Source: an uncultured Archangium sp. (lineage in GTDB: Bacteria; Myxococcota; Myxococcia; Myxococcales; Myxococcaceae). From it: a DNA stretch of 64,000 bases. The stretch is from the NCBI GenBank assembly GCA_903905455.1, contig CAIVGN010000127.1:62001-126000 (forward strand), read 5' to 3'. A program made the position numbers and the translations under genes. Below the pieces are notes generated by a model. It was not told the origin of the DNA, did not search any database, and saw nothing but the letters and a program-made list of their open reading frames with translations. Positions 4,946 to 38,445 of the stretch are shown here, piece after piece; the stretch's first letter is position 1; the number at the start of each line of letters is the position of its first letter.

Positions 4946-6868
4946 ATGCTCCACGCGCGCTCCTCCCTGCTCCTCGATCTCTTCGGCCACGTCGGCGCGC
5001 ACCCCGGCGAGAGCACCATGGAGCGGGTGGGCCGGCAGACGCTGGTGCTGGGCGGAGTGCTGATGAGCGGTGGCGGGCTGCTGTGGGGCGGGCTGTGCCT
5101 GGCCTTCGGCAGCTACGGCCCCTCGGTCGTGCCGCTGTCCTACGTGGGGCTCACCTCGCTCAACCTCGGGACGCTCGCGGTCACCCGCAAGCTCGAGCGC
5201 GCGCGGGCCGTGCAGGTCGCGTTGAGCCTGCTGCTCCCCTTCCTCTTCCAGTGGAGCCTCGGCGGCCTCTTCCCCAGCGGCGGGGTGATGCTGTGGGCGA
5301 TGATCGCGCTGGTGGGGTCGCTGACGCTGACGAAGCCACGGCAGGCGGCCTGGTGCCTCGCCGGGTACTGCGCGCTCACGGCGCTCAGCGGCGTCTTCGA
5401 CGGGGCGCTCGCCACGCGCGCGGCGCTGGCGCCCGAGCCGAACCGCGAGCGGCTGTTCTTCTTCATCAACGTCGTCGCCATCTCGTGCATCGTCTTCGCC
5501 ATGGGCCTCGCCCTCACCCAGCGCCAGCGGCGCGCCATCGAGGCGCTCGAAGCGGGCGAGTTGAAGAACCAACAGCTCAACCTGCAGCTGACCGCGGCCC
5601 TGGCCTCGCGCGAGCAAGACATCGGGCGGCTGCGCGTCGCCGAGGGCCGACTCCAGGAACTGACGACGGGCCTCGAAGCCCAGGTCCAGACGCGCACGGC
5701 GCAGCTGGAGACGGCCCTGGTGCGCGCCGAGGCCGGCACGCGGGCCAAGAGCGAGTTCCTCGCGGTGATGAGCCACGAACTCCGCACGCCCCTCAACGGG
5801 ATCCTCGGCACGGCAGAGCTCCTGCGCCTGACGCGGCTCGAACCAGACCAGCTCGACTACGTGCGCGTGGTGCGGCGCAGCGGAGACCTGCTGCTCACGG
5901 TGATCAACGATCTCCTCGACTTCTCGCGCCTCGAGGCGGGCCACCTGAAGCTGTCGCCGCGGCCCTTCGACCTGCGGGCCGGGCTCGGCGACGTGGCGGC
6001 CCTCCACCGCAGCGTGGCGCAGCAGCGCGGCGTCGCCCTCACCGTCCACCTCTCCGACTCGCTTCCGAGCCTCGTCTCCACCGACCCCGATCGCCTCCTG
6101 CAGATCGTCGCGAACCTCCTCGCCAACGCGGTGAAGTTCACCTCGAAGGGCAAGGTGTCCCTCACCGCCAGCGGGCGTCCCGAGGGCATGGCCCTGTGGC
6201 TCGACGTCGAGGTGGCGGACACCGGCATCGGCATCTCCGCCCAGTCCCTGCCCCGGCTCTTCGAGCCGTTCGCCCAGGCCGACAGCAGCAGCACCCGGCG
6301 CCATGGCGGCACGGGCCTGGGCCTCGCCATCTGCGCGCGCCTCGTGGCGATGATGGGCGGCCGCATCACCGTCGACAGCCAGCTCGACCAGGGCACCACC
6401 TTCCGCTTTCACGTGCGCGTCGACGCCGTCCTGGCGCAGGTGCCCCCCGGCGCCCCGAGCGAGGCGAAGGCGCGCGCGGCCGACGGGGCGGGCATTTGCG
6501 TGCTGCTCGCCGAGGACAACCCGGTGAACCAGACCATCGCCCGCAAGGTGCTGCTGGGCCTGGGCTGCGAGGTCGACGTGGCCGGCAACGGGCAGGAGGC
6601 GCTCACCCTCGCCTGCACCCGCGCCTATGACCTCGTGTTGATGGACCTGCAGATGCCGGTGATGGACGGGCTCGACGCGACGCGGGCCCTTCGCGCGGCG
6701 GCCCTGGCGCGCCAGCCGCGCATCGTGGCGCTGACCGCCAACACCTCGCCCAGCGACCGCCAGCAGTGCCAGGAGGCCGGCATGGACCACTTCCTGTCCA
6801 AGCCCCTGCAGATCGAGGAACTACGCGAACAACTGCGCCTCACCCGGGGGCTCCAGGTCCCGACCTGA
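4946..6868 (+). CDS. Membrane hybrid histidine kinase / response regulator
   Basis: 640 residues. About six hydrophobic segments between residues ~30 and 190 form a sensor without a recognisable extracytoplasmic domain. A coiled-coil linker follows (~200-270), then HisKA with MSHELRTPLNG (phospho-accepting His near residue 276). The ATPase domain has N box LANAVKFTS, G1 DTGIGIS, an F box FEPFAQADSS and G2 GTGLGLAI. A C-terminal receiver has acidic pair EDN (~520), phospho-Asp in LVLMDLQMPVMDG (~566) and Lys in LSKPLQ. No HPt domain, so a separate phosphotransfer protein or regulator is needed. An ATG at 5018 (MERVGRQTL) is an alternative start just before the first membrane helix. Shares an upstream inverted repeat with the kinase at 9358. 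Confidence 0.93.
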   Translation: MLHARSSLLLDLFGHVGAHPGESTMERVGRQTLVLGGVLMSGGGLLWGGLCLAFGSYGPSVVPLSYVGLTSLNLGTLAVTRKLERARAVQVALSLLLPFLFQWSLGGLFPSGGVMLWAMIALVGSLTLTKPRQAAWCLAGYCALTALSGVFDGALATRAALAPEPNRERLFFFINVVAISCIVFAMGLALTQRQRRAIEALEAGELKNQQLNLQLTAALASREQDIGRLRVAEGRLQELTTGLEAQVQTRTAQLETALVRAEAGTRAKSEFLAVMSHELRTPLNGILGTAELLRLTRLEPDQLDYVRVVRRSGDLLLTVINDLLDFSRLEAGHLKLSPRPFDLRAGLGDVAALHRSVAQQRGVALTVHLSDSLPSLVSTDPDRLLQIVANLLANAVKFTSKGKVSLTASGRPEGMALWLDVEVADTGIGISAQSLPRLFEPFAQADSSSTRRHGGTGLGLAICARLVAMMGGRITVDSQLDQGTTFRFHVRVDAVLAQVPPGAPSEAKARAADGAGICVLLAEDNPVNQTIARKVLLGLGCEVDVAGNGQEALTLACTRAYDLVLMDLQMPVMDGLDATRALRAAALARQPRIVALTANTSPSDRQQCQEAGMDHFLSKPLQIEELREQLRLTRGLQVPT

Positions 6869-6950: not shown

Positions 6951-7883
6951 ATGAAGCGGGTACTCACCAATGACTTTTCGTGGAGCAAGAGCCGCCACGA
7001 GAAGCTCGCCGAGTGCGAGCGGGCCTATTTCTTTCAGTACTACCGCAGCTGGGGAGGCTGGGAGCAACGCGCGCCCGAGGAGGTGAAGACGCTCTTCGGC
7101 CTCAAGAAGCTCCACAGCCGCTTCACCTGGGCCGGCAGCGCGGTGCACGGCGCGGTGCGAGACGCGCTGCGCAGCTACCGCGCCCAACGCCCCGTGGACG
7201 CCGCCGCGCTCATCGAGCGGGTCCACCAGGACATGCTGGCGCAGTTCCGTCACTCGAAGGCCCGCCGCTACCGGGCCGACCGCCGCACCTTCGAGGGCCT
7301 GGTCGAGCACGAGTACGACGAGCCGGTGGCCCCCGCAGAGTGGAAGCGCAACTGGGACACGGTGAAGGGGGCGCTGGAATGGTTCTTCGCCAGCCGCTGG
7401 CCCGCCCTCGCCCAGGCGATCCCCGCGGAGCGCTGGCTGGAGGTGGACGAGAACGACTTCGACCACTCGAGCTTCCTGCTCGACGGGGTGAAGGTCTTCG
7501 CGGTGCCCGACTTCGCCTGGCTCGAGGAAGACGGCACGCCCCGGGTGGTGGACTGGAAGACCGGCGGCGCTCGCGAGGGCTACGACGACCAGGTCATCGG
7601 CTACGCGATGTACGTCGCCGAGCGCTACCGCCTCGACGTGATGCGGGTGCGCACCTCGCTGGTGTTCCTGAACGCGGGCACCGAGCAGGAGGTGGCCATC
7701 TCCCCCGAGGCCCTGGCGCGGTTCCGGGAGCACTTCGAAGAGAGCACCGGCCGCATGCGCGCGCTGCTCGCCGACCCGGCCGCCAACGTGGCCCGCGACG
7801 CCGACGCCTTCCCCCTCACCACCGATCTCACGCGCTGCGCCCGGTGCGTGTTTCGAAGGCCCTGTGGGCGCACTGGCGGCTGA
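6951..7883 (+). CDS. PD-(D/E)XK nuclease-family protein with Fe-S-type cysteines
   Basis: 310 residues; the ATG at 6951 follows GGGGAG at a good Shine-Dalgarno distance. The N-terminus KSRHEKLAECERAYFFQYY contributes one Cys and the C-terminus has CARCVFRRPC, the split four-cysteine arrangement of the AddB/Cas4 (PDDEXK_1) nuclease clan. The core has VPDFAW (catalytic Asp) followed by VVDWKTG (D-x-K), then GYDDQVIGYAMYV, the usual QxxxY helix motif. It resembles stand-alone RecB-like nucleases. No adjacent helicase or CRISPR genes are seen, so its partner is unknown. Confidence 0.82.
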   Translation: MKRVLTNDFSWSKSRHEKLAECERAYFFQYYRSWGGWEQRAPEEVKTLFGLKKLHSRFTWAGSAVHGAVRDALRSYRAQRPVDAAALIERVHQDMLAQFRHSKARRYRADRRTFEGLVEHEYDEPVAPAEWKRNWDTVKGALEWFFASRWPALAQAIPAERWLEVDENDFDHSSFLLDGVKVFAVPDFAWLEEDGTPRVVDWKTGGAREGYDDQVIGYAMYVAERYRLDVMRVRTSLVFLNAGTEQEVAISPEALARFREHFEESTGRMRALLADPAANVARDADAFPLTTDLTRCARCVFRRPCGRTGG

Positions 7884-14732: not shown

Positions 14733-14800
14733 CGACGCGCGGGCGCCGCCTCGACCAGCGAGAGATCCAGCACCAGGTCGGCGGTCGACGCTTCGAACTG
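14733..14800 (-). pseudogene. Remnant resembling the 3' end of the gene at 15938
   Basis: On the minus strand one frame reads LLRQFEASTADLVLDLSLVE. The C-terminus of the protein at 15938-16783 contains QFMRLTADRVLDRELVEAV. The DNA alignment over ~65 nt is roughly 70-75% by eye, with a shared stretch GGTCGGCGGTC, and the orientation is the same. No start or stop belongs to it. It is read as a displaced, decayed 3' end of that gene or of a homologue. The match is short, so chance similarity in GC-rich coding sequence is possible. Confidence 0.4.
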
Positions 14801-14843
14801 CCGAAGCAGCGGGCCGCAACGGGTCCGGCCTGTCACGACGCCC

Positions 14844-15462: not shown

Positions 15463-15573
15463 GCGGACGGTCGTGGTCAAGCCGCCAGGGAGGCGGGAGT
15501 TCTGGGGCTCGCTGCCGTGCTCAGGCCGAACCAGCCCCTCTCCTCGCGCTCGAGGGCGGCGCGTTTCGTTGCG

Positions 15574-15835
15574 GCTTCGTGATGGATTCGCCCCAGGTGC
15601 CCGCTGCGTGGAAGAGCTCGGGCGGCCGGGCGGCTTTGCGAGCACCTATGACAAAATGTAGGTCACCATGGGGGCGACCTACATTTTGTCATAGGTGCTC
15701 GGACCATCGACCCAGGGCGTGACCACCACAACGCCCCGCTCACCCCGCGCCAGAACGCGTCGTGCCGAAGGGGCTCGTTCGGCAAGGGCACGGGGCAGGC
15801 TCCAACAGCCCCCGCGTCCCCCTGAGCCGTTTTTG
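15574..15835. repeat. Dispersed repeat with long hairpin, copy 1
   Basis: Starts with GCTTCGTGATGGATTCGCCC (15574-15593, identical in copy 2 at 34322-34341). A perfect 26-bp stem follows: arms 15639-15664 and 15676-15701 with an 11-nt loop. The left arm includes CACCTATGACAAAATGTAGG. After the stem, ~130 bp (CCAGGGCGT ... GCCGAAGGGGC ... TCCCCCTG) align loosely with copy 2. In copy 2 the T-A pair at 15659/15681 is G-C, so pairing is conserved. No transposase is nearby. Together with 15463-15573 and 15836-15937 this fills the gene-free stretch before 15938; nothing else was seen there. Confidence 0.75.
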
Positions 15836-15937
15836 AACTTCCCCGGGCGCCGTGACGACCATGCGCGCGGGCGCAGCGGCGGTGAAGCGGGCCGGTCTGA
15901 CTTCCGCAAGACCTTCCGGGTGGCTTGAGAGCCGTCC

Positions 15938-16783
15938 TCAGGCGCGGCCCTCCTTCCGCGCGCGCACGGCCTCGACCAACTCGCGATCGAGCACCCGGTC
16001 GGCGGTCAGGCGCATGAACTGCTTGGGCGCGGCGAAGGCGAGCAGCCGCTCCCGCACGGCCGGGGACGGCGCGTCGATGACCACCGAGGGCGTGCCGATG
16101 CCCGCGTGCGTCGCCGGCCAGTGCAGCTCGGCCTTGATCAACTCCATCAGCACGCTGCGCGAGAGCACCCGCGCCTCTTCGCCCGGAAGCAGGAACCAGT
16201 CGATGCCGGTGGGGAAACACAGCGGCAGGTCGGCGGTCCACGAGACCCCGGTGGCGAGGTCGCCTTCGGCGTCGAGCAGCAACAGCGCGGTAGGCACGTA
16301 GGCGGGCGGCAGGTCGGCCCCCTCGAACAGCGCCTGGGTGCGCTCACGCGCGAAATTCCACGCCCACACCAGGTGGTTGGCTTCCCGGGGCAGCGACCAG
16401 AGTTCCGCGCCTTCGTCGAGGGCCACCTCGTAGCCGGCGCGGTTGCCCGCGTTCCACCCGCGCAGGAACCCCTCGGGGCTGTACGGCCCTTCGCCCATGC
16501 CCTCCATCTGGGGGTCCGAGATCTCGAGGCCGAAGTGGGCCACGAAGGGGCTCAGCGTGAGCTCTGCCTCGAGCCCGAAGACGTGGGACCGCAGGTAGCC
16601 GAGGCTGAACGTGGGGAGCCCCGCGCCCTCCTGGCAGTCGAAGGCGAAGTACACCCCGGTGGCCTCGTTCTCGAACACCACCCGCTCGGGGTGCACGTGC
16701 GCGAACGGGCGCGCCGCGAGCCAGTCGATCAGGGCCCTGCGCGGGGGAGCGTCGGCGCTCCGGAAGAACAGCTCGTAGCTCAC
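15938..16783 (-). CDS. Protein of unknown function (~281 aa)
   Basis: Start taken at a GTG (16783, VSYELFFRSADAPPRRAL); longer in-frame starts exist but add an Arg-rich tail. No signal peptide or membrane helix. Features: RPFAHVHPERVVFENEATG, FDCQEGAGLPTFSLGYLRSH, GPYSPEGFLRGWNAGNR and a Leu-rich YVPTALLLLDAEGD. The C-terminus is RLTADRVLDRELVEAVRARK. The fold looks alpha/beta, and similar uncharacterised proteins may occur in other myxobacteria, but no family was recognised. Its 3' end borders the hairpin islet and has a partial look-alike at 14733-14800. Confidence 0.6.
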   Translation of the reverse strand: MSYELFFRSADAPPRRALIDWLAARPFAHVHPERVVFENEATGVYFAFDCQEGAGLPTFSLGYLRSHVFGLEAELTLSPFVAHFGLEISDPQMEGMGEGPYSPEGFLRGWNAGNRAGYEVALDEGAELWSLPREANHLVWAWNFARERTQALFEGADLPPAYVPTALLLLDAEGDLATGVSWTADLPLCFPTGIDWFLLPGEEARVLSRSVLMELIKAELHWPATHAGIGTPSVVIDAPSPAVRERLLAFAAPKQFMRLTADRVLDRELVEAVRARKEGRA

Positions 16784-29459: not shown

Positions 29460-30758
29460 TCAGACGCGCAGGCCGAGCGGCTGACCGGTGCTCGCCATCG
29501 CGCCGCTGCCGAAGCTGGTGCGGGCGCCCATGCCCAGCAGCGAGAAGAGCTCCACGTGGAGATCCGACAGCGGGCGACGCGCGGCGGGCACGACTTCCTG
29601 GCCGAAGCGCAGGTCCGCGCCGGCGCCACACACCAGCATCGGGAGGTTCTCGGTGTGGTGCACGTTGCCGTCGGACATGTCGGAGCCGTAGAGCACCAGC
29701 GTCTCGTCGAGCAGCTGGGCGGCCTTGAGCTTCTCGAGCAGGTCGGCGAGCAGGCCCACCTGCACGCGGTTCATCTGCTTGAGGCGATCGATCGAGCCCT
29801 GGGTGTTGCCGTGGTGCGCGCAGGCGTGGTGCCCGTTGCCGGCGCCCAGGGCCTCGGGGAAGGTCATCTGCTCCGACACCCCCGGCCCGTACATCAGCGT
29901 GGCCACGTTGGTCAGGCCGCACTGCATGGCGAGCACGATGATCTGGTGCATGAGCTGGAAACGCAGCACGTAGTTCGTGTTGGGGCTCGAGAAGTCCTGG
30001 GTGGGCTCGGCGAGCGTGGGGGTGCAGGTGAAGCCGCCCTGCCTCAGGCCATTCTCCACTTCGCGCACGGTCTCCAGGTACGAAGTGAGCACCGGCCGGT
30101 AGCTCTCGGGCAGGCGGCCGGAGAGGCGCGTGGCGTCGCGGTGCAGGCTGTCGAGCACCGAGCGCTTGCGCGCGTGGAGGTAGGCGAGCTGCGCGGCGCT
30201 CCCGGCCTGGCCTCCGAAGAGCTTCTGGAAGAGCTGCGCCGGGTTGGGGATGGGCGAGCGGAACTTGTCGGGCGCCTGCCAGCTGATGCGGTTCAGGTAG
30301 TCGTTGGAGTAGCCGGGGTGATCGTTGAGCGGATGCACGTGGTAATAGATGCCGCCGATCTCCAGCGAACGGATCGACCCCGGGTACTGCTCGGCCACGT
30401 ACTGGTCGACGGTCTTCCCACAGCGCGCGACGCCCGGGTCTCCGAGCACCATCGGCTCGCACGACAGGAAGCCCGCGCAGTTCTGCCAGTGCGGATCGTT
30501 CCCCGGGAAGCCGTTGAAGAGGTTGCGCACCACCATGGCGTTGCCCTGCAGGTTGCGCGCGACCAGCGGCTGCAGCGCCTCGCTCCAGGTCCAGTTCCCG
30601 TTGGCGCCGGCGGGCATGTACGCGCCGTTGGGCACGTAGGCGCCGATGAAGCGCTTCCGCGCGGGGGCCTGCTGGGCCGAGGCGAGGTGGGGGGCGAGCA
30701 GGGGCAGCGCGAAGGACGCCGAGAGCCACTGCAGCACGTCGCGACGAGAGGTCTTCAT
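29460..30758 (-). CDS. DUF1552 protein with Tat-type signal
   Basis: 432 residues. MKTSRRDVLQWLSASFALPL is a twin-arginine-type signal. Then KRFIGAYVPNGAYMPAG, MVVRNLFNG, HPLNDHPGYSNDYLNRISWQ, VSEQMTFPEALG, HHACAHHGN and ETLVLYGSDMSDGNVH, all typical of DUF1552, which is related to the alkaline phosphatase/DUF1501 type. The ATG overlaps the stop of the DUF1592 gene by 4 nt, so the two are coupled, as these families commonly are in Planctomycetota and Myxococcota. Substrate unknown; a periplasmic or outer-membrane complex with the cytochrome-like partner is inferred. Confidence 0.88.
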   Translation of the reverse strand: MKTSRRDVLQWLSASFALPLLAPHLASAQQAPARKRFIGAYVPNGAYMPAGANGNWTWSEALQPLVARNLQGNAMVVRNLFNGFPGNDPHWQNCAGFLSCEPMVLGDPGVARCGKTVDQYVAEQYPGSIRSLEIGGIYYHVHPLNDHPGYSNDYLNRISWQAPDKFRSPIPNPAQLFQKLFGGQAGSAAQLAYLHARKRSVLDSLHRDATRLSGRLPESYRPVLTSYLETVREVENGLRQGGFTCTPTLAEPTQDFSSPNTNYVLRFQLMHQIIVLAMQCGLTNVATLMYGPGVSEQMTFPEALGAGNGHHACAHHGNTQGSIDRLKQMNRVQVGLLADLLEKLKAAQLLDETLVLYGSDMSDGNVHHTENLPMLVCGAGADLRFGQEVVPAARRPLSDLHVELFSLLGMGARTSFGSGAMASTGQPLGLRV

Positions 30759-32887
30759 GGCGTCACCTCCGTCAGCTCGAGGGCCTTGAGCAGCGCCTCG
30801 ATGGTCATGGTCTTGAGGCCCGGCGCCTGGCCACCGGCCGGGTGCGCGAGCTGCTGCGCGAGGCACGCCTCAGGCTCGAGCGGGCCGCGGTTGAGGCCGA
30901 AGGTGAGCAGCTTGGTGGCCACGCAGGTGCGGTACTCGTCGCCACCTTCGATGGCCGAGGCGAGCTCGGTGGGGTCGTGCACCACCACGCCGTCGAGCTC
31001 GAGGTCGGCGACGATGGGCGCGCCGTTCAAGTAGGTGTCGCGCCACTTCCCCTGCGCGTCGTACTTCTCGAGCGCGAGGCCCAGGGGGTCGATGAAGGCG
31101 TGGCAGCTGCCGCAGCGCGTGGCCGAGTTGCGGTGCAGCGCCATCTGCTCGGGCAACGGGAGGGTGCGGTCGATGCTCTCGAAGGAGGTGCTGATCTCCG
31201 CGAGCGTCGCGGGGTCGATGCGCGGCATCTGCCGGCACAACAGCCGCGTCAGCACCCACAGGCCGCGGTGAATGGGGCGGCGGAACTCGGAGCCGTTCGC
31301 GGTGCGCGTGAGGAAGGCCGCCTGCGAGAGCAACCCGCCGCGCGCGTCGGTGGGCACCCGGTACGTGGGCCCGCCCGCGCCCGGGGCCGGGAGCCCGTAG
31401 TGAGCGGCCAGCGGCGCGTCGACGAGGGTGAAGCCGGGAGAGAGGAGGCGCTCTGCCGGGAGCCCTTCACCGAGCACCGCGCCGAACATGTCGCGCGACT
31501 CGCGCTGCATCGAGGCCACCAGCGGCCCCTCCTGCACCGTGTCGCGGAAGTCGAGCCACTGCCCGCCGAAGTTCGTGGTGAAGCGCTCGCCGTCCTGCTC
31601 GAGCAACCGCACCGCCTGGGCACGCACCGACGCCGCGTCGTCGAGGCCGCCCGTGCCCGCGAGCATCCACAACTGCTCGTCGGCGATGGAGCCGCGGAAG
31701 AAGAGCCCCAGCCGCGAGGCGCGCCCAAAGCCGCGCTCTGCAGGGTCGAGGCCGCCGGGCACGAGCTCGGGCTTGAAGGTGAAGTTCGGCGAGAGGAAGA
31801 CCGCCTGCAGCACCGCAGACAGCGCCTCGTCGACCGGCTCGGCGAAGCCCGCGGAGGCCGCGCCCTGCAGCGACGACTCGAAGAGCGCGCGGGAGTCAGC
31901 CAGCTCGTCGGCGCGCACCGGGCGGCGGAAGGCGCGGCTCGCGAGGCGGGCCACCAGCGGCTCCACGCAGTTGCTCCAGGTCCACCCGCTCTTGCGCGGC
32001 GTCGCGGTGAAGGGCAACGACGCGGAGAACGCGGTGCTGTCGTAGTTGGCGTTGGCCTTGCGGTTGATGACGAAGTCGAGGCGCTCGCCGCGGGCCAGGG
32101 TCAGCGGCAGGTTGAAGGCCGCCTGGCCGCCGTTGGGGATGTCCTGGGTGAAGACCGCGGTGCCGTTGCGCCGGATGCTCACCAGCACGCCGTCGCCGCC
32201 GCCCGGGTCGCCGTCGATGAAGGTGCCCGACACGGTGACGGTGCCGTCGACCGGGCTCTGCCAGCGGCGCACCACGTCGACGGTGGAGCCGGGGTGCGCG
32301 CCCAGTTGCCACAGCAGCGCCGTCTCGTCGGGCTCCTTGCGCCACAGCGAGCGCGCGTTGTCGAAGATCATCGGGGCGCCGCTGGAGTCGAGGTAGTTCC
32401 AGCACTCGCGGCCCTGGGAGTCGGAGAAGTCGTCGCGCGAGGAGTAGGTCGCCTTGAGCTCGCACGCCGGCGTCTGCGCCGGGGCGACGGCCGGACAGTG
32501 GGCGGTGAGTGACGGGGTGGCGAGCACCAGGCCCGCGAGCGCTTCGGCGGTGGCCAACTGCACCTCGAGGCCCTGCGCGTCGATGCGCGTCTCGCTCATG
32601 GTGTCGAAGCCGTAGACCTGCGCGACCGGCGTCCACCGGGCGAAGAGCGCCTCGTCGACCGGCACGCCCAGCACGTCGGCCACCATGGCCCGGTACTCGT
32701 GGTTCGACAGGCGCAGCAGCTTGTTCACCGGCGCGGCCGAGGGCTCGCACTTCGGGGGCCCGGCATCGACGACCACCGGAGGCGGTGCATCGGCGGGGCT
32801 CACCGCGGTCCGGGGACCCACGATGGTGCCTTCACACGCCACGAGCGTGAGCAGCACCCCGGGCAGGAGTCGACGCAGGGAGGCCAT
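30755..32887 (-). CDS. DUF1587/1592/1588/1585 lipoprotein with haem-binding motif
   Basis: 710 residues from the ATG at 32887, which gives a lipobox (LLTLVAC). Domains in order: DUF1587 (LLRLSNHEYRAMVADVLGV), a carbohydrate-binding-like middle (~150-300), DUF1592 (RLGLFFRGSIADEQLWMLA), DUF1588 (FTLVDAPLAAHYGLP, GLLSQAAFLTRTANG) with CGSCH, a c-type haem motif, and HAFIDPLGLALEKYDAQGKW, then DUF1585. Upstream of and overlapping the DUF1552 gene. Probably an envelope electron-transfer or hydrolytic module; no experimental function is known to me. Confidence 0.88.
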   Translation of the reverse strand: MASLRRLLPGVLLTLVACEGTIVGPRTAVSPADAPPPVVVDAGPPKCEPSAAPVNKLLRLSNHEYRAMVADVLGVPVDEALFARWTPVAQVYGFDTMSETRIDAQGLEVQLATAEALAGLVLATPSLTAHCPAVAPAQTPACELKATYSSRDDFSDSQGRECWNYLDSSGAPMIFDNARSLWRKEPDETALLWQLGAHPGSTVDVVRRWQSPVDGTVTVSGTFIDGDPGGGDGVLVSIRRNGTAVFTQDIPNGGQAAFNLPLTLARGERLDFVINRKANANYDSTAFSASLPFTATPRKSGWTWSNCVEPLVARLASRAFRRPVRADELADSRALFESSLQGAASAGFAEPVDEALSAVLQAVFLSPNFTFKPELVPGGLDPAERGFGRASRLGLFFRGSIADEQLWMLAGTGGLDDAASVRAQAVRLLEQDGERFTTNFGGQWLDFRDTVQEGPLVASMQRESRDMFGAVLGEGLPAERLLSPGFTLVDAPLAAHYGLPAPGAGGPTYRVPTDARGGLLSQAAFLTRTANGSEFRRPIHRGLWVLTRLLCRQMPRIDPATLAEISTSFESIDRTLPLPEQMALHRNSATRCGSCHAFIDPLGLALEKYDAQGKWRDTYLNGAPIVADLELDGVVVHDPTELASAIEGGDEYRTCVATKLLTFGLNRGPLEPEACLAQQLAHPAGGQAPGLKTMTIEALLKALELTEVTP

Positions 32888-32964
32888 GAGCCGGGTTGTC
32901 GGCGCAAAGCCTGCAGGGTTGCGGATCATTTCCTCTCAGGACCTGGGAAAAACCGGGGCCCCAT

Positions 32965-33041
32965 GGGCACGAAGTCGGTCAGGCCGGAGAAGCCCGGGTC
33001 GCGGGACGCATCCTGAGCTGCGTGAGCGGGCGCGCCATCTG
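32965..33041 (-). pseudogene. Truncated copy of the 3' end of the lipoprotein gene at 36203
   Basis: Two blocks match the 3' part of 36203-37549 in the same orientation. 32965-33003 aligns with 36206-36244 at 35 of 39 bases, and 33017-33041 aligns with 36370-36394 at 24 of 25. About 125 bp between the blocks in the intact gene is reduced to 13 bp here. Translated, it gives RQMARPLTQ and SRDPGFSGLTDFVP against QMTRPLTQ and TRDPGFYGMTVFAP. A decayed duplicate or displaced 3' end. Confidence 0.75.
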
Positions 33042-33112
33042 CCGCGGTGGGAGCGCGCACCGCGGCTTGCTTGATCGTGGGTACGATCTGACGGCTGGCC
33101 TGATCCCTTGCG

Positions 33113-33901
33113 TCACTCGACGGCGAGCTTCAGGTGATGCCGGGCGAGGTCCACGCTCTCCTGTCGGTAGCTCATCGCGGTGACGAAGCCATCGGCGGTC
33201 AGCCGGCCCCCGCAGTCGGTCTTCTCCCCACGGCCCGGCTCGATGGCGGCAAAGAGGAGGTCGCCCTCGTGCAATTCCACCTTCACCTCGAGCGTCGCGC
33301 ACACCCGCTTCAGGTCGGGCGAGGCGGGCTCGACCACGTCGAGCTGGTAGCGCCAGACGGAGCTCTGTCGCGCTTCGGCGGTGGCCGCAGGCTCGACCAG
33401 GCAGCAGCTCTCGCGGGAGGGGAGGCCCAGTGCGTCGCGGACGCCCACGACGCGGACGATCGCGAGCACCGGCGCCCGGCGGTAGCGGCCTGCGTGGTGC
33501 GGCCCCTCCCCCAGCGCAGTGACCCGCTCGCCGTTGATCTTCGAGGTCAGGTGATCAGGCCCGAAGTCCTGCACCCGGCGGGACGGCAGGTCGGGGGAGT
33601 TGATCATCTGGCGGGTGTCGTCGTCGTCGCCAAAGGTGGCGATGAGCTCACGTGTCCCGTCGGCGCGGTACCAGGTCCACGTGCCGGCGCGACGGCTGTC
33701 GCGGTACTCGCCGGCCTGGCGCAGGGTGCCCTTGCTCCACGACTTCATCGGGCCGTGCATCAGCACTTGCCCGTTGGCCGCTCTCTTCTCGCAGGTGCGG
33801 GTGACCTCGTCAGGCGAGGTCCAGAGCCTCTGCTCGGTGCCGGCGGGGCAGTCGAGCGGAGGTGGGAGCGCAGCGGTCAGGATCAGGGCGGTGAGCAGCA
33901 C
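33113..33901 (-). CDS. Exported MORN-like protein
   Basis: 262 residues from a GTG at 33901 (VLLTALILTAALPPPLDC), which gives a signal peptide; an ATG at 33979 in frame would add a charged N-terminus. GTLRQAGEYRDSRRAGTW plus TWYRADGTRELIATF is a MORN-variant repeat of the toxin-antitoxin/EXPORTED type. The C-terminal half (SVWRYQLDVVEPASPDLKRV, ATLEVKVELHEGDLLFAAI) is beta-rich with paired Cys (ESCCLVE). Part of the second islet. Role unknown. Confidence 0.6.
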   Translation of the reverse strand: MLLTALILTAALPPPLDCPAGTEQRLWTSPDEVTRTCEKRAANGQVLMHGPMKSWSKGTLRQAGEYRDSRRAGTWTWYRADGTRELIATFGDDDDTRQMINSPDLPSRRVQDFGPDHLTSKINGERVTALGEGPHHAGRYRRAPVLAIVRVVGVRDALGLPSRESCCLVEPAATAEARQSSVWRYQLDVVEPASPDLKRVCATLEVKVELHEGDLLFAAIEPGRGEKTDCGGRLTADGFVTAMSYRQESVDLARHHLKLAVE

Positions 33902-34170
33902 GGCCGCCCTAACGGGCGCGCCGGACGATCGATCTGCGGCGCCGCCCGAGGTCGGCGCTGCCAGGGATCGTGCGGCCATCCGGCGTGCGTCAACCGGGCG
34001 CGATGGTGCTGGCGCTCCCCCCAATCGACACCACCACTGGATGCCGCGCCGCCTGGGGACCTCTGACGTGCGGAGGTGAACAGCAGCCCGAAGGGTAGCG
34101 GTTGTTCGCTGCTCGTTGGCCGTGCGCATCGCGTGTGAGCCCCGCGAAGGCGCGGCGTCTCGTTTCGCCA

Positions 34171-34220
34171 ACACTGACGGACTCCGTGGGGGTGCGCACC
34201 CCCGCCGAGTCCGTCAGTGT
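34171..34220. repeat. 50-bp near-perfect palindrome
   Basis: Outer arms ACACTGACGGACTC (34171-34184) and GAGTCCGTCAGTGT (34207-34220) are perfect complements. The core GGGGGTGCGCACCCCC is itself a perfect palindrome, with two mismatched pairs between core and arms, and no loop. It is 140 bp from the hairpin repeat copy 2. It could be a dimeric protein-binding site, a cruciform or an element end. Confidence 0.8.
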
Positions 34221-34321
34221 GATTGGTCCCAGACGAAGCCTGCACCGACGAGTCACCGGCGCACTCGAGGTGAGGGGCCGATCGACTGAAGCACGGCGCC
34301 GGGAAGGCGCATGGCACTTCA

Positions 34322-34580
34322 GCTTCGTGATGGATTCGCCCGCGGACGTGGACGGCTCGCGGCGAGCACCTATGACAAAATGGAGGTCACGCCGGGGCCG
34401 ACCTCCATTTTGTCATAGGTGTTCGAGCCACCCGGCCCCAGGGCGTCACCACCCCATCGCTCCGTTCACTGCGCCCCCGGGAGCGTCGCGCCGAAGGGGC
34501 ACGTTCGACCAAGGTGCGGCGCAGGCACCTCAACCCCCACTCCCCCTGGGCTTTGGGGGACCGCGCATTGCACGACGCGC
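34322..34580. repeat. Dispersed repeat with long hairpin, copy 2
   Basis: Begins with the same 20-mer as copy 1. Stem arms are 34363-34388 and 34400-34425 with an 11-nt loop. The stem is 26 bp with one G-T wobble (34366/34422) and a G-C pair at 34383/34405 where copy 1 has T-A. Downstream ~130 bp align with copy 1 (CCCAGGGCGT; GCGCCGAAGGGGC). The rest of 33902-34687 holds only this repeat and the palindrome at 34171. Confidence 0.75.
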
Positions 34581-34687
34581 AGAACCTGCAGGCTGTCGAG
34601 GCACTCGCTCGTCCACCTCGTCAGGTTTCAGGTCGTCCCTCCCGGGAACCACGTAGCGTCTGACGCTTCAATCTCGAGGGGGACAAC

Positions 34688-36166
34688 TTGCGCACATTCG
34701 CCGTGGTCACACTGATGGCTTCGCTGTTCGCAGTGCCCGCCTTCGCAGGGAGGGAACCGTCCTACGCCGAGAAGATGGCCTGTCAGCACATGCTCGAGTT
34801 CCTCAAGGACGCAGATGAGATCCTCGGGAAGATGCCGCTCGAGAACTACACGACGTCCGTGGGCACGCGCAGCATCGAGGCGCCCATCACCAGGTCCAAG
34901 CAGGAGATGAGCCGGTGCCCCAAGGGCACTCCGGACATCGCCATCGCCGAAGAGCGCATCGCCACGCTCCGCGCCGCGGTGGCCGCCAAGACCGAGGAGG
35001 CGAAGGCGCTGGCGCCGGGCGCCAAGAAGGTCACCGCCGCGGTGAAGGTGTGGCTGGGGAAGCTCGAGGCCGCGAAGAAGAGCGAGCCGATGGCCTTCCA
35101 GGACCCGGGCCACAAGTCGGTGGTGTGGCTGCGCGACGATCTCGACGGCATCGAGAAGAAGCTCGTCGCCGCGGGCAACCCCGAGCACCCTGACGCGAAG
35201 GAGGCCGCGGCAGCCGTCGCCGACGCGAAGGCGAAGCTGCAGGCGGCCCTCGACGACGCGAAGAAGGCCGTGGAGTCCCTGGGGAACTGGCAGGCGAAGG
35301 CGAAGGAACTCGGGGACAAGCTCGACGGCCGCTACATGATGCACGTGCCCATCGACGACGCGAAGGTGGACGCGTGGATCGACCTGCTGCCCGAGTCGAA
35401 GGCCGACCTCGTCGCCGCCGAGGCGCTCAAGACGCTCGTCCACGACACCGTCAAGGACGTCGACGCCGTGCCCGCGTTCAAGGAACTGTCCGACAAGGTG
35501 TGGGCCGAGAAGAACGTCTTCGAGCGGGAGACCACCAACTGGTACGGGAACTTCATCAACGACATCAGCCTGGCCGAGAGCACGCCCACCGACTTCAAGG
35601 CGTTGAACATCGGCATCGACGGCTTCGACGATCCTCGCCGCAGAATCTCGAACGGCATCTCGGCCGCCAAGCACAAGGAGAAGTACCTGCGCGTCTTCCT
35701 CAAGGACGAGGCGGCCGCGGCGCAGGCAGCGGACGAAGTGAAGACGTACGAGGCCAGGATGGCGGCGCTCGACGCCACCGAGGAGAAGCTGCTCGACAGC
35801 GTGCGCATGCCCAGGCCCCGCGGCACGCCGGAAATGCAGAAGATCATGAAGCAGGTGATCTCCAGCAGCGACTTCGTCAAGCAGATGAAGTCGGAGGGCA
35901 ACAAGGTCCTCCGGGTGATGGTGATCGAGGACTCGATCACCCACACCAAGACCACCGAGTGGTACCACGGCCGTTGGTACACCCGGGACTTCGACTCGTT
36001 CACCTGCCTGGCGGCGATGAAGGACGACAGGTACCACAAGGTCTGGAAGTGGCAGTTCGATGCGCGCTTTGCGCGCACGGAGCTCCCGGAGCTCAAGACC
36101 GGGGTGTGGACCTACGGTTCCTGGCAGCGCTTCGGGCCGATCCTCGAGGCGAACGTCAACAAGTAG
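34688..36166 (+). CDS. Exported coiled-coil protein
   Basis: 492 residues from a TTG start with GGGGGA upstream. Signal peptide MRTFAVVTLMASLFAVPAFA. The central region (~75-210) is an Ala/Lys/Glu-rich coiled coil (EERIATLRAAVAAKTEEA; ADAKAKLQAALDDAKKAVES). The C-terminal domain (VLRVMVIEDSITHTKTTEWY, HGRWYTRDFDSFTCLAAMK, TYGSWQRFGPILE) looks like a small beta-rich domain. No family recognised; periplasmic. It lies inside the second islet on the opposite strand to its neighbours. Confidence 0.75.
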   Translation: MRTFAVVTLMASLFAVPAFAGREPSYAEKMACQHMLEFLKDADEILGKMPLENYTTSVGTRSIEAPITRSKQEMSRCPKGTPDIAIAEERIATLRAAVAAKTEEAKALAPGAKKVTAAVKVWLGKLEAAKKSEPMAFQDPGHKSVVWLRDDLDGIEKKLVAAGNPEHPDAKEAAAAVADAKAKLQAALDDAKKAVESLGNWQAKAKELGDKLDGRYMMHVPIDDAKVDAWIDLLPESKADLVAAEALKTLVHDTVKDVDAVPAFKELSDKVWAEKNVFERETTNWYGNFINDISLAESTPTDFKALNIGIDGFDDPRRRISNGISAAKHKEKYLRVFLKDEAAAAQAADEVKTYEARMAALDATEEKLLDSVRMPRPRGTPEMQKIMKQVISSSDFVKQMKSEGNKVLRVMVIEDSITHTKTTEWYHGRWYTRDFDSFTCLAAMKDDRYHKVWKWQFDARFARTELPELKTGVWTYGSWQRFGPILEANVNK

Positions 36167-36202
36167 GCGCTCCGGCGCGCGCTCAACTGGGAGACGCCAC
36201 CC

Positions 36203-37549
36203 TCAGGGCGCGAAGACGGTCATGCCGTAGAAGCCCGGGTCGCGCGTCGAGAGCGAGGTGCTCACGTCGTGGTAGTTGAACCCGTTGGTCACCACGCAGA
36301 AGTCGTAGGTGCGGTTCGAGGGGCTCATCGTCAGCTGGGTGGGGCTCGCGCTGTACGACTCGGTGCCCTGCTGCGTGAGCGGGCGCGTCATCTGGCAGGT
36401 GCAGAGGTTGTTGGCGAAGGCGCAGGTGGCGCTGAAACCGACGGAAGCCGCGATGCTCGGCGCCTGGCTGCACAGGCTGGCGTTGGCGCACGTCCCGCCG
36501 ATGTCGGCGGTGACGGTGAGCGTACCCGTGACGGCGCGGGTGATGCTGCCGGGGCTCAGGCTCACCGTGCCGCTGATGGTGCCGCCCTTGTTGCGCAGCG
36601 TGGTCGAGCCCGCGCCGCACAGCGAGGTGGCCTGGGCGACGAACGGGGCGAACTCCGCGTCGTCGACGCAGGCCGAGGCGTAGGCGAAGGTGCCCGTGGT
36701 GAGGCCGCCGCACGCGGTGAAGGTCGGGCAGGTGGCGGGGAACGTGAGCGCGATGACCGGAGGCGTGCCCGCGCCGCCCTGCGTGCACTGGCCGCTGCTG
36801 CTCTGGCAGGTCAACCCGGCCGGGCAGCCCGCGCTGGTGCACTTCGCGCTGCACTGCTTCGTCGCGCCCTGGCAGATCTGCCCGCTGATCGCGGCCGCGC
36901 AGAGCCCGTCGGTGGCGCACTGACAGAAGCCCGGGCTGTTGCTGGTGGGCGCCGACCCATCGAAGTGCGTGCAGGTCTTCTGGGCTGCGGGGCAATCGGA
37001 GGCGCTGGTGCAGGCCGACACGCAGGTGTTGAGCACCGGGTGACACACCGTGCCCAGGCCGCAGTTGGGACAGGTCGGGGTGGTGCCGCCGCCACCACCG
37101 GTCGAGCCGCTACCGCCGCCCATCGCGCCACTTCCTCCGCCCGTCGTGCCGTTGCCGCCGCCCGTCGACGCGCTGCCGCCGCCGGTGGAGCCATTGCCCC
37201 CGCCGGTCGACGCGCTGCCACCGCCCGTGGAGCCAGTGCCCCCGCCCGTCGACGCGCTGCCGCCGCCGGTGGAGCCACTGCCCCCGCCCGTCGAGGCGCT
37301 GCCACCACCGGTCGCGCCGCTGCCGCCCCCGCCGTTGGTCCCCGCGCACTGCCCGAGCACGCACTGCTGGCCCAGGCTGCACGCGCTGCACGCCGCGCCG
37401 TTCGCGCCGCAGGTGAGCGCCGAGGCCGACTGGCAGGCACCGTTGGTATCGCAGCAGCCCCTGGGACAGGAGCTCGAGTCACACGAGGTGGAGGTGGAGC
37501 CACAGCCGGCGAGGACTGCGAGGGCGAAGAAGGCCAGGACGAAGCGCAT
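36203..37549 (-). CDS. Cys-rich lipoprotein with GGGSAST repeat linker
   Basis: 448 residues; lipobox VLAGC; TAAGAG 15 nt before the ATG. A Cys-rich head (CDSSSCPRGCCDTNGAC; CSLGQQCVLGQC) is followed by a ~75-residue linker of GGGSAST/GGGxGST heptads, then Cys-rich EGF-like modules (CGLGTVCHPVLNTCVSAC; CQSSSGQC) and a beta-rich C-terminal domain (KGGTISGTVSLSPGSITRAV). Likely surface lipoprotein. A truncated copy of its 3' end lies at 32965-33041. Confidence 0.75.
   Translation of the reverse strand: MRFVLAFFALAVLAGCGSTSTSCDSSSCPRGCCDTNGACQSASALTCGANGAACSACSLGQQCVLGQCAGTNGGGGSGATGGGSASTGGGSGSTGGGSASTGGGTGSTGGGSASTGGGNGSTGGGSASTGGGNGTTGGGSGAMGGGSGSTGGGGGTTPTCPNCGLGTVCHPVLNTCVSACTSASDCPAAQKTCTHFDGSAPTSNSPGFCQCATDGLCAAAISGQICQGATKQCSAKCTSAGCPAGLTCQSSSGQCTQGGAGTPPVIALTFPATCPTFTACGGLTTGTFAYASACVDDAEFAPFVAQATSLCGAGSTTLRNKGGTISGTVSLSPGSITRAVTGTLTVTADIGGTCANASLCSQAPSIAASVGFSATCAFANNLCTCQMTRPLTQQGTESYSASPTQLTMSPSNRTYDFCVVTNGFNYHDVSTSLSTRDPGFYGMTVFAP
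37090..37335 (-). repeat. 21-bp tandem repeats (GGGSAST / GGGxGST)
   Basis: About eleven 21-bp units encode heptads that alternate GGGSAST and GGG(S/T/N)GST, giving a 42-bp higher-order period. In-frame expansion or contraction would change only linker length. Confidence 0.8.
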
Positions 37550-37668: not shown

Positions 37669-38445
37669 ATGCGCCGCGTCGCCCTCCTGCTCCTGCTCGC
37701 CTCCGGGCCCGCGCTCGCGGCCGACATCTTCGAGATCCAGGTCTACAACTCGGAGACCGCCGCGCCCGGGCAGATCGGCGCCGAGGTGCACCTGAACCAC
37801 TTCGCCGCGGGTGACGCGGTGGGCACCGACGGGCAACGCCCCACCGACAAGACCACCCACCTCACCGTCGAGCCCCACGTGGGCATCGCCTCCTGGTGCG
37901 AGGCCGGCGCGTACTTCGTCAGCGCCTTCCGGGCCACCGGCACCTGGGACTTCGTGGGCCTCAAGGTGCGCTTCAAGATGGCCCTGCCCAAGCGGCTCTT
38001 CGGGGTGTTGGGCCTCTCGTTGAACCAGGAGATCTCCGTCTCGCGCACCGACTACGAGGCGGATCAATTCGGCTGGGAGATCCGCCCGGTCATCGACGCC
38101 AACTGGCGGTACGGCTACCTCTCCTTCAACCCCATCCTCGACGTACCGCTCGGGGGACCGGGCGCGGGCATGCCGGGCTTCGAGCCGTCGCTCAAGGGCT
38201 TCCTCCGGCCCCTGCCGTGGCTGGGCATCGGCGCCGAGTACTACGCCGACTTCGGGGCGCTCTCGCGGTTGAGCGTGGTGGCGGATCACACGCACCGCCT
38301 CTTCGGCGCCCTCGACTTCGAGTGGAAGTGGGGCCGGCAGATGTTCGAGCTCAACCTCGCCGTGGGCTACGGCCTGCAGGGCGCGGAGAAGTGGATCGGC
38401 AAGGTCATCTTCGCCATCGACATCGACCCCACGCCCGCGAGCTGA
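37669..38445 (+). CDS. Outer-membrane beta-barrel-like protein
   Basis: 258 residues; signal MRRVALLLLLASGPALAAD. The mature protein alternates beta strands typical of small outer-membrane barrels: IFEIQVYNSETAAPGQIGAE, HLTVEPHVGIASWCEAGAYF, LFGVLGLSLNQEISVSR, LPWLGIGAEYYADFG and a C-terminal WIGKVIFAIDIDP. Resembles the uncharacterised outer-membrane-protein families of Proteobacteria and Myxococcota. No neighbour suggests a substrate. Confidence 0.7.
   Translation: MRRVALLLLLASGPALAADIFEIQVYNSETAAPGQIGAEVHLNHFAAGDAVGTDGQRPTDKTTHLTVEPHVGIASWCEAGAYFVSAFRATGTWDFVGLKVRFKMALPKRLFGVLGLSLNQEISVSRTDYEADQFGWEIRPVIDANWRYGYLSFNPILDVPLGGPGAGMPGFEPSLKGFLRPLPWLGIGAEYYADFGALSRLSVVADHTHRLFGALDFEWKWGRQMFELNLAVGYGLQGAEKWIGKVIFAIDIDPTPAS

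Follow-up and report, generated by a model that had tools for sequence, protein, structure and literature searches.

Prophages and islands integrate into the 3' ends of protein-coding genes, as e14 and phage 21 do in icd. At rhs loci, the displacement of C-terminal tips has been attributed to one crossover with a circular molecule (PMC2935791), and it has been proposed that modules are added to Vibrio T6SS arrays via homology-facilitated illegitimate recombination (PMC5361080), a process shown in naturally competent bacteria (PMC3240628). It is also established that SbcCD cleaves palindromes in E. coli (PMC4245961, PMC3315005).

Here we describe a locus of comparable layout in a 64,000-nucleotide stretch of DNA (the window, whose numbering is used in Table 1) belonging to a genome of 8.6 Mb. 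An intact lipoprotein gene is followed by two genes and two palindromic repeats and then, 3.2 kb downstream, by a 77-bp remnant of its own 3' end. We call such an arrangement of intact gene, intervening DNA (cargo) and displaced gene tail an islet; a second example, islet 1, lies in the same window.

Results

The remnant consists of two pieces, A and B, which are collinear with two segments of the lipoprotein gene and in the same orientation, and which are separated by 13 bp in the remnant compared to 125 bp in the gene. This two-segment match had been reported in the first-pass annotation, and its coordinates, identities and orientation were all reproduced. The E values in Table 1 come from a self-comparison over 12 kb. 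The best local score was 58, compared to a maximum of 40 among 300 first-order Markov shuffles of 32930–36202, and when the remnant was searched against the whole 8.6-Mb genome the only significant matches were the two lipoprotein segments (next best E 0.13). The translated pieces read QMARPLTQ / RDPGFSGLTDFVP in the remnant and QMTRPLTQ / RDPGFYGMTVFAP in the gene. The remnant is therefore a decayed copy of the last ~190 bp of the lipoprotein gene, kept as two pieces after loss of the ~112 bp that lay between.

The C-terminal domain of the lipoprotein also occurs, at ~28–37% identity, in 12 further genomes of its family. Further upstream in the gene, a 21-bp tandem repeat (37066–37352) encodes a Gly/Ser-rich linker, and linkers of this kind are present in many proteins of the same genome.

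Table 1. Features of the lipoprotein islet and of islet 1, in window coordinates
Feature	Position	Strand	Evidence
Intact lipoprotein gene, 448 aa, donor of the duplicated 3' end	36203..37549	-	Open reading frame
Duplicated segment A, last codons of the lipoprotein gene	36206..36244	-	35/39 to 32965-33003
Duplicated segment B, ~170 bp ahead of the lipoprotein stop codon	36370..36394	-	24/25 to 33017-33041
Remnant piece A	32965..33003	-	E 1e-8; 4 mismatches, 0 at third codon positions
Remnant piece B	33017..33041	-	E 7e-5
Cargo ORF, earlier called MORN-like	33113..33901	-	Unmatched in Pfam, PHROG and PADLOC
Cargo ORF, TTG start, signal-peptide-like N-terminus	34688..36166	+	Open reading frame
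Next gene past the remnant, PSCyt/DUF1592-type	30755..32887	-	Conserved with DUF1552 gene in 4/5 genus relatives
Family-2 fold-back repeat, holding palindrome 34171-34220	34080..34303 (ends approximate)		Aligned with 11 other genome copies
Palindrome ACACTGACGGACTC...	34171..34220		Inverted repeat I2, 93% complementary, 50 bp
Family-1 fold-back repeat, left end missing, abutting family 2	34303..34560 (ends approximate)		85-86% to C188 and C86 copies
Hairpin, 26-bp arms (CACCTATGACAAAATGGAGGTC)	34363..34425		Inverted repeat I3, 96% complementary
Islet 1 intact gene, duplicated 3' end 15957-16022	15938..16783	-	Self-comparison
Islet 1 remnant of that 3' end	14736..14801	-	81% over 67 bp, E 3e-9
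Complete family-1 element of islet 1, with hairpin 15639-15701	15488..15848		Repeat-family comparison

Two open reading frames make up the coding part of the cargo. The one nearer the remnant had been labelled MORN-like, a label that we have dropped since Pfam gave no family match. The other had been described as a TTG-started, exported-looking frame, which is indeed intact; it has a single homologue among the 59 relatives searched, in G003, at 41% identity. It had also been remarked that the islet lacks an integrase, and we likewise found no integrase match among the cargo proteins examined from this and other islets. Cargo is unrelated between islets, comprising a histidine kinase with a PIN-domain gene in one case, a GyrB-like ATPase or a Uma2-type nuclease in others, and elsewhere repeats alone.

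The PSCyt gene and its DUF1552 partner are kept together in four of the five genus relatives, where the lipoprotein gene is absent. In the nearest genomes, all of them distant relatives, no lipoprotein orthologue lies beside this pair. Queries with the PSCyt gene, the lipoprotein C-terminus, the exported gene, the 'MORN-like' ORF and the gene at 37669 identified no syntenic locus in relatives of the genus or family, and neither an empty nor a donor-type locus was found among the relatives searched, which are too distant. In the named GTDB collection the lipoprotein had no match and the C72a gene, another with a tail copy, had distant matches only, while gene order around the rhomboid gene of C55 was not conserved in the synteny comparison.

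The palindrome and the hairpin first noted in the islet are real inverted repeats, and they form the centres of two dispersed families of non-coding repeats. Family-1 elements measure ~330–370 bp, with imperfect ~90-bp terminal inverted repeats flanking the 26-bp-arm hairpin. Family 2 resembles family 1 in layout, the ends of the two families are alike, and its central palindrome (ACTGACGGACTC) occurs twice in tandem in some copies (L122, L131). With multiple dispersed copies bearing terminal inverted repeats, the hairpin elements are MITE-like fold-back repeats. In addition to the copy in the islet, family 2 is represented by L118, L120, L122–L125, L127, L129–L131 and L134. When the flanks of these copies were compared, a 46-bp duplication was seen at just one of 11, and family 2 was therefore rejected as a general duplicator of gene tails. 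The family-1 hairpin is present as 26 half-sites in this genome, and a search of 59 relatives that tolerated up to two mismatches did not find its arm in any of them.

Most hairpin loci are half-hairpins (L008, L009, L012–L015 and L017–L026, around 1501), in which one arm is gone a few bases past the tip and unrelated DNA adjoins. Such halves may be what cleavage of a hairpin left behind; alternatively, the unit may have been a half from the start. Halves of ATTTCG-type hairpins are clustered within 1 kb at L160 (5976–6127) and L167 (5562–6510), some of them forming direct repeats of ~180 bp. At L159, a hairpin half and a 202-aa ORF lie between two genes that are 79% identical over 590 bp (5057–5646 and 7040–7629); of the two genes, the downstream one is shorter but remains open.

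Strong direct repeats were found near many of the genome's hairpins and few in 20 control regions (12-kb self-comparisons). A second scan, independent of the hairpins, covered 1.24 Mb on 11 contigs, or 14% of the 8.6-Mb genome; its 967 genes came from a simple predictor of our own using a codon-usage model, and each was compared with the intergenic DNA within 8 kb. Twelve matches between a gene end and intergenic DNA reached at least 45 bits, and all twelve involve a 3' end copied on the same strand and downstream of its gene, with no 5'-end copies in the 1.24 Mb, also when genes were left unmasked. Removal of one double count and of C238a, which is a dispersed repeat and was discarded as a gene-tail copy, leaves ten genes, namely the lipoprotein gene, that of islet 1 and about eight more, including two weak cases (C72d, C238b). 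Almost all intergenic, non-dispersed copies of nearby genes are 3' ends, lying 0.3–5.3 kb from the gene, and the distant matches are, with few exceptions, dispersed repeats or low-complexity sequence. This bias towards 3' ends and downstream positions supports insertion accompanied by duplication of a gene tail. The same scan of 400 kb of the same-genus genome G003 gave mixed classes, one of 22 intergenic matches being of the 3'-end, same-strand, downstream class, so the bias is not general to the method; the samples in this single 400-kb comparison are too small for a claim that the rates differ.

The islets vary in their make-up. In islet 1 the remnant and its source gene are separated by a full family-1 element. 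The C72c remnant contains a piece from codon ~94 joined to the 3' end, and the C60 remnant a piece of an upstream MarR-type gene joined to the end of a glutathione-peroxidase gene; these far-upstream pieces show that long segments could be copied, with shortening afterwards. Between genes A and B of C17 (L219 8433–11956, corresponding to C17:68433–71956) sits a mosaic remnant made up of a piece upstream of B, an inner piece of B, and inner and 3' pieces of A.

Over all cases, mismatches between gene and remnant fall on first, second and third codon positions in the ratio 20:34:37, the third position thus accounting for 37 of 91 with a non-significant excess (p 0.10). None of the five mismatches in the lipoprotein islet is at a third position, while C72a has 13 of its 20 there. 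Without a concentration at third positions, the copies were probably near-identical to the gene when made and decayed afterwards, and these mismatches show that the remnants decayed without coding constraint. A diverged replacement 3' end of the e14/icd type was considered and set aside, as the differences are not mainly silent; the spread of mismatches argues against a diverged tail having been brought in by an element, with the possible exception of C72a.

Discussion

We propose that the lipoprotein islet is the scar of an additive recombination that duplicated the gene tail, and give this reading a probability of roughly 0.45. Incoming DNA would have carried the lipoprotein gene, or part of it, followed by other DNA. 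One side would have joined the resident locus through homology within the lipoprotein gene and the other would have been closed by an illegitimate junction (or, alternatively, there would have been a single crossover with a circle). The outcome would be a whole gene with new DNA behind it and the resident tail stranded before its old downstream neighbour, where the tail would decay and lose its internal ~112 bp. An intact gene with a duplicate of its tail is compatible with a homologous anchor on one side of the added DNA, and the duplication, which scores above the shuffles and is specific to the lipoprotein gene in the genome-wide search, speaks for this reading. We infer that cargo and duplication came from one event, and that this event was recombination rather than the work of an integrase. 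In such regions the palindromic repeats probably act as sites of breakage or are carried along as passengers, and are probably not themselves the machinery of integration.

Homology-anchored addition would also be expected to leave 5' remnants upstream of genes, and none were seen. Their lack needs selection against them. Since duplication of the tail alone leaves the promoter of a gene in place, selection could spare tail duplications; this explanation would serve equally if the copies arose by recombination or by tandem duplication.

Tandem duplication is the close rival, although we consider it somewhat unlikely. Here the gene or its 3' part would have been copied in place, the copy would have decayed from its 5' side, and cargo and repeats would have been inserted later and separately into the neutral spacer that separates gene and remnant. 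At one sampled gene an adjacent, cargo-free duplicate of the 3' end is indeed present (C97 144910–145980), which fits duplication without insertion and counts against additive recombination. The C17 remnant has its piece of gene B ahead of its piece of gene A (70255–70356, 70375–70486), as expected at a tandem A–B joint. Decay free of coding constraint agrees with tandem duplication too, and the enrichment of hairpins in islets could be explained by their later insertion into spacers. However, the 1.24-Mb scan found no remnants of cargo genes beside the gene-tail remnants, and several remnants of high identity break off close to the stop codon (exactly at the TGA in C77, at +34 in C72c), although a random end could fall anywhere downstream. 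The lack of cargo-gene remnants and the abrupt ends lead us to favour recombination.

Additive recombination may extend beyond this locus, as a recurrent, integrase-free process of the lineage that adds 0.3–5 kb just downstream of ordinary genes, duplicates their tails and uses fold-back repeats as sites of breakage or entry. By extrapolation it would have left several tens of scars in the genome; we regard this wider proposal as doubtful.

The first-pass annotation had interpreted the islet as a mobile element integrated at the 3' end of a gene. The geometry on which this was based holds, in that an intact, restored gene and a displaced 3' end on the same strand flank the cargo, as they would for a 3'-end integrative element. 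About ten genes have these parts in the order required and 3' ends alone are affected, which would suit non-autonomous elements whose site-specific integration relied on an integrase, of the tyrosine or serine type, supplied in trans. The site-specific part of the interpretation did not hold up and is improbable in our judgement. A different gene is involved every time; the duplicated tails share no common core (maximum pairwise score 23, mean null maximum 25.9), resemble one another no more than random gene ends do, and end variably, from -78 to +34 bp around the stop codons. Two copied segments begin far upstream, so that what was copied is more than an att-like end. In addition, the examined cargo is without an integrase and the third-position divergence expected of a foreign 3' end is not seen. 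We also discarded the idea that the hairpin serves as an attC-like site or one required for integration, because it lies at varying positions with respect to the tail and is missing from many islets.

It is more improbable still that the hairpins themselves cause the duplications, with the rearrangements driven by breakage of the fold-back repeats (SbcCD-type cleavage of hairpins and subsequent end joining). Five of the eight hairpin loci in the 1.24 Mb do lie within such islets, and with a conservative count of four the enrichment has a Fisher p of 2e-4, or 0.006–0.02 when only longer spacers are considered (0.006 at >=300 bp). The C187 and C60 remnants are moreover directly adjoined by a hairpin broken near its tip, and a causal role of hairpins in the duplications is possible. 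However, about half of the sampled islets have no family-1 hairpin, and in the lipoprotein islet the hairpin is >1.3 kb from both the remnant and the gene. A Ku gene was looked for and not found, making Ku-dependent joining unlikely, and some of the data used here had also suggested the hypothesis. Retro-copying of mRNA as the source of the tail copies was rejected, since each copy lies near its gene and on the gene's own strand.

Comparison with known systems

The repeat families share with REPIN and RU/ERIC-type repeats a short, non-coding, palindromic form and a dispersed distribution in intergenic DNA, but unlike these, family 1 is specific to this genome within the set searched. Like e14 or phage 21-type prophages, the inserts are flanked by a restored gene and a displaced 3' end; those prophages use one integrase and a fixed site, whereas in the islets both the genes and the ends vary and the examined cargo is without an integrase. 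The displacement of C-terminal tips at rhs loci likewise leaves an intact gene, inserted DNA and the displaced 3' end stranded downstream. There, however, the new tail bears no relation to the one it displaces, whereas the tail and remnant of the islet are the same sequence, and in this genome the arrangement extends to many ordinary genes. Homology-facilitated illegitimate recombination would share with the islet a homologous anchor, an illegitimate junction, a gain of DNA and the retention of the displaced old sequence. It has been demonstrated in competent bacteria, while in this organism it is putative. Most displaced 3' ends described so far come from toxin loci (rhs, T6SS) or prophage sites. 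Should ordinary genes in one bacterium carry them at about eight per megabase, they would provide a countable record of integrase-free gene addition next to older genes, and a means to orient and order the events from a single genome.
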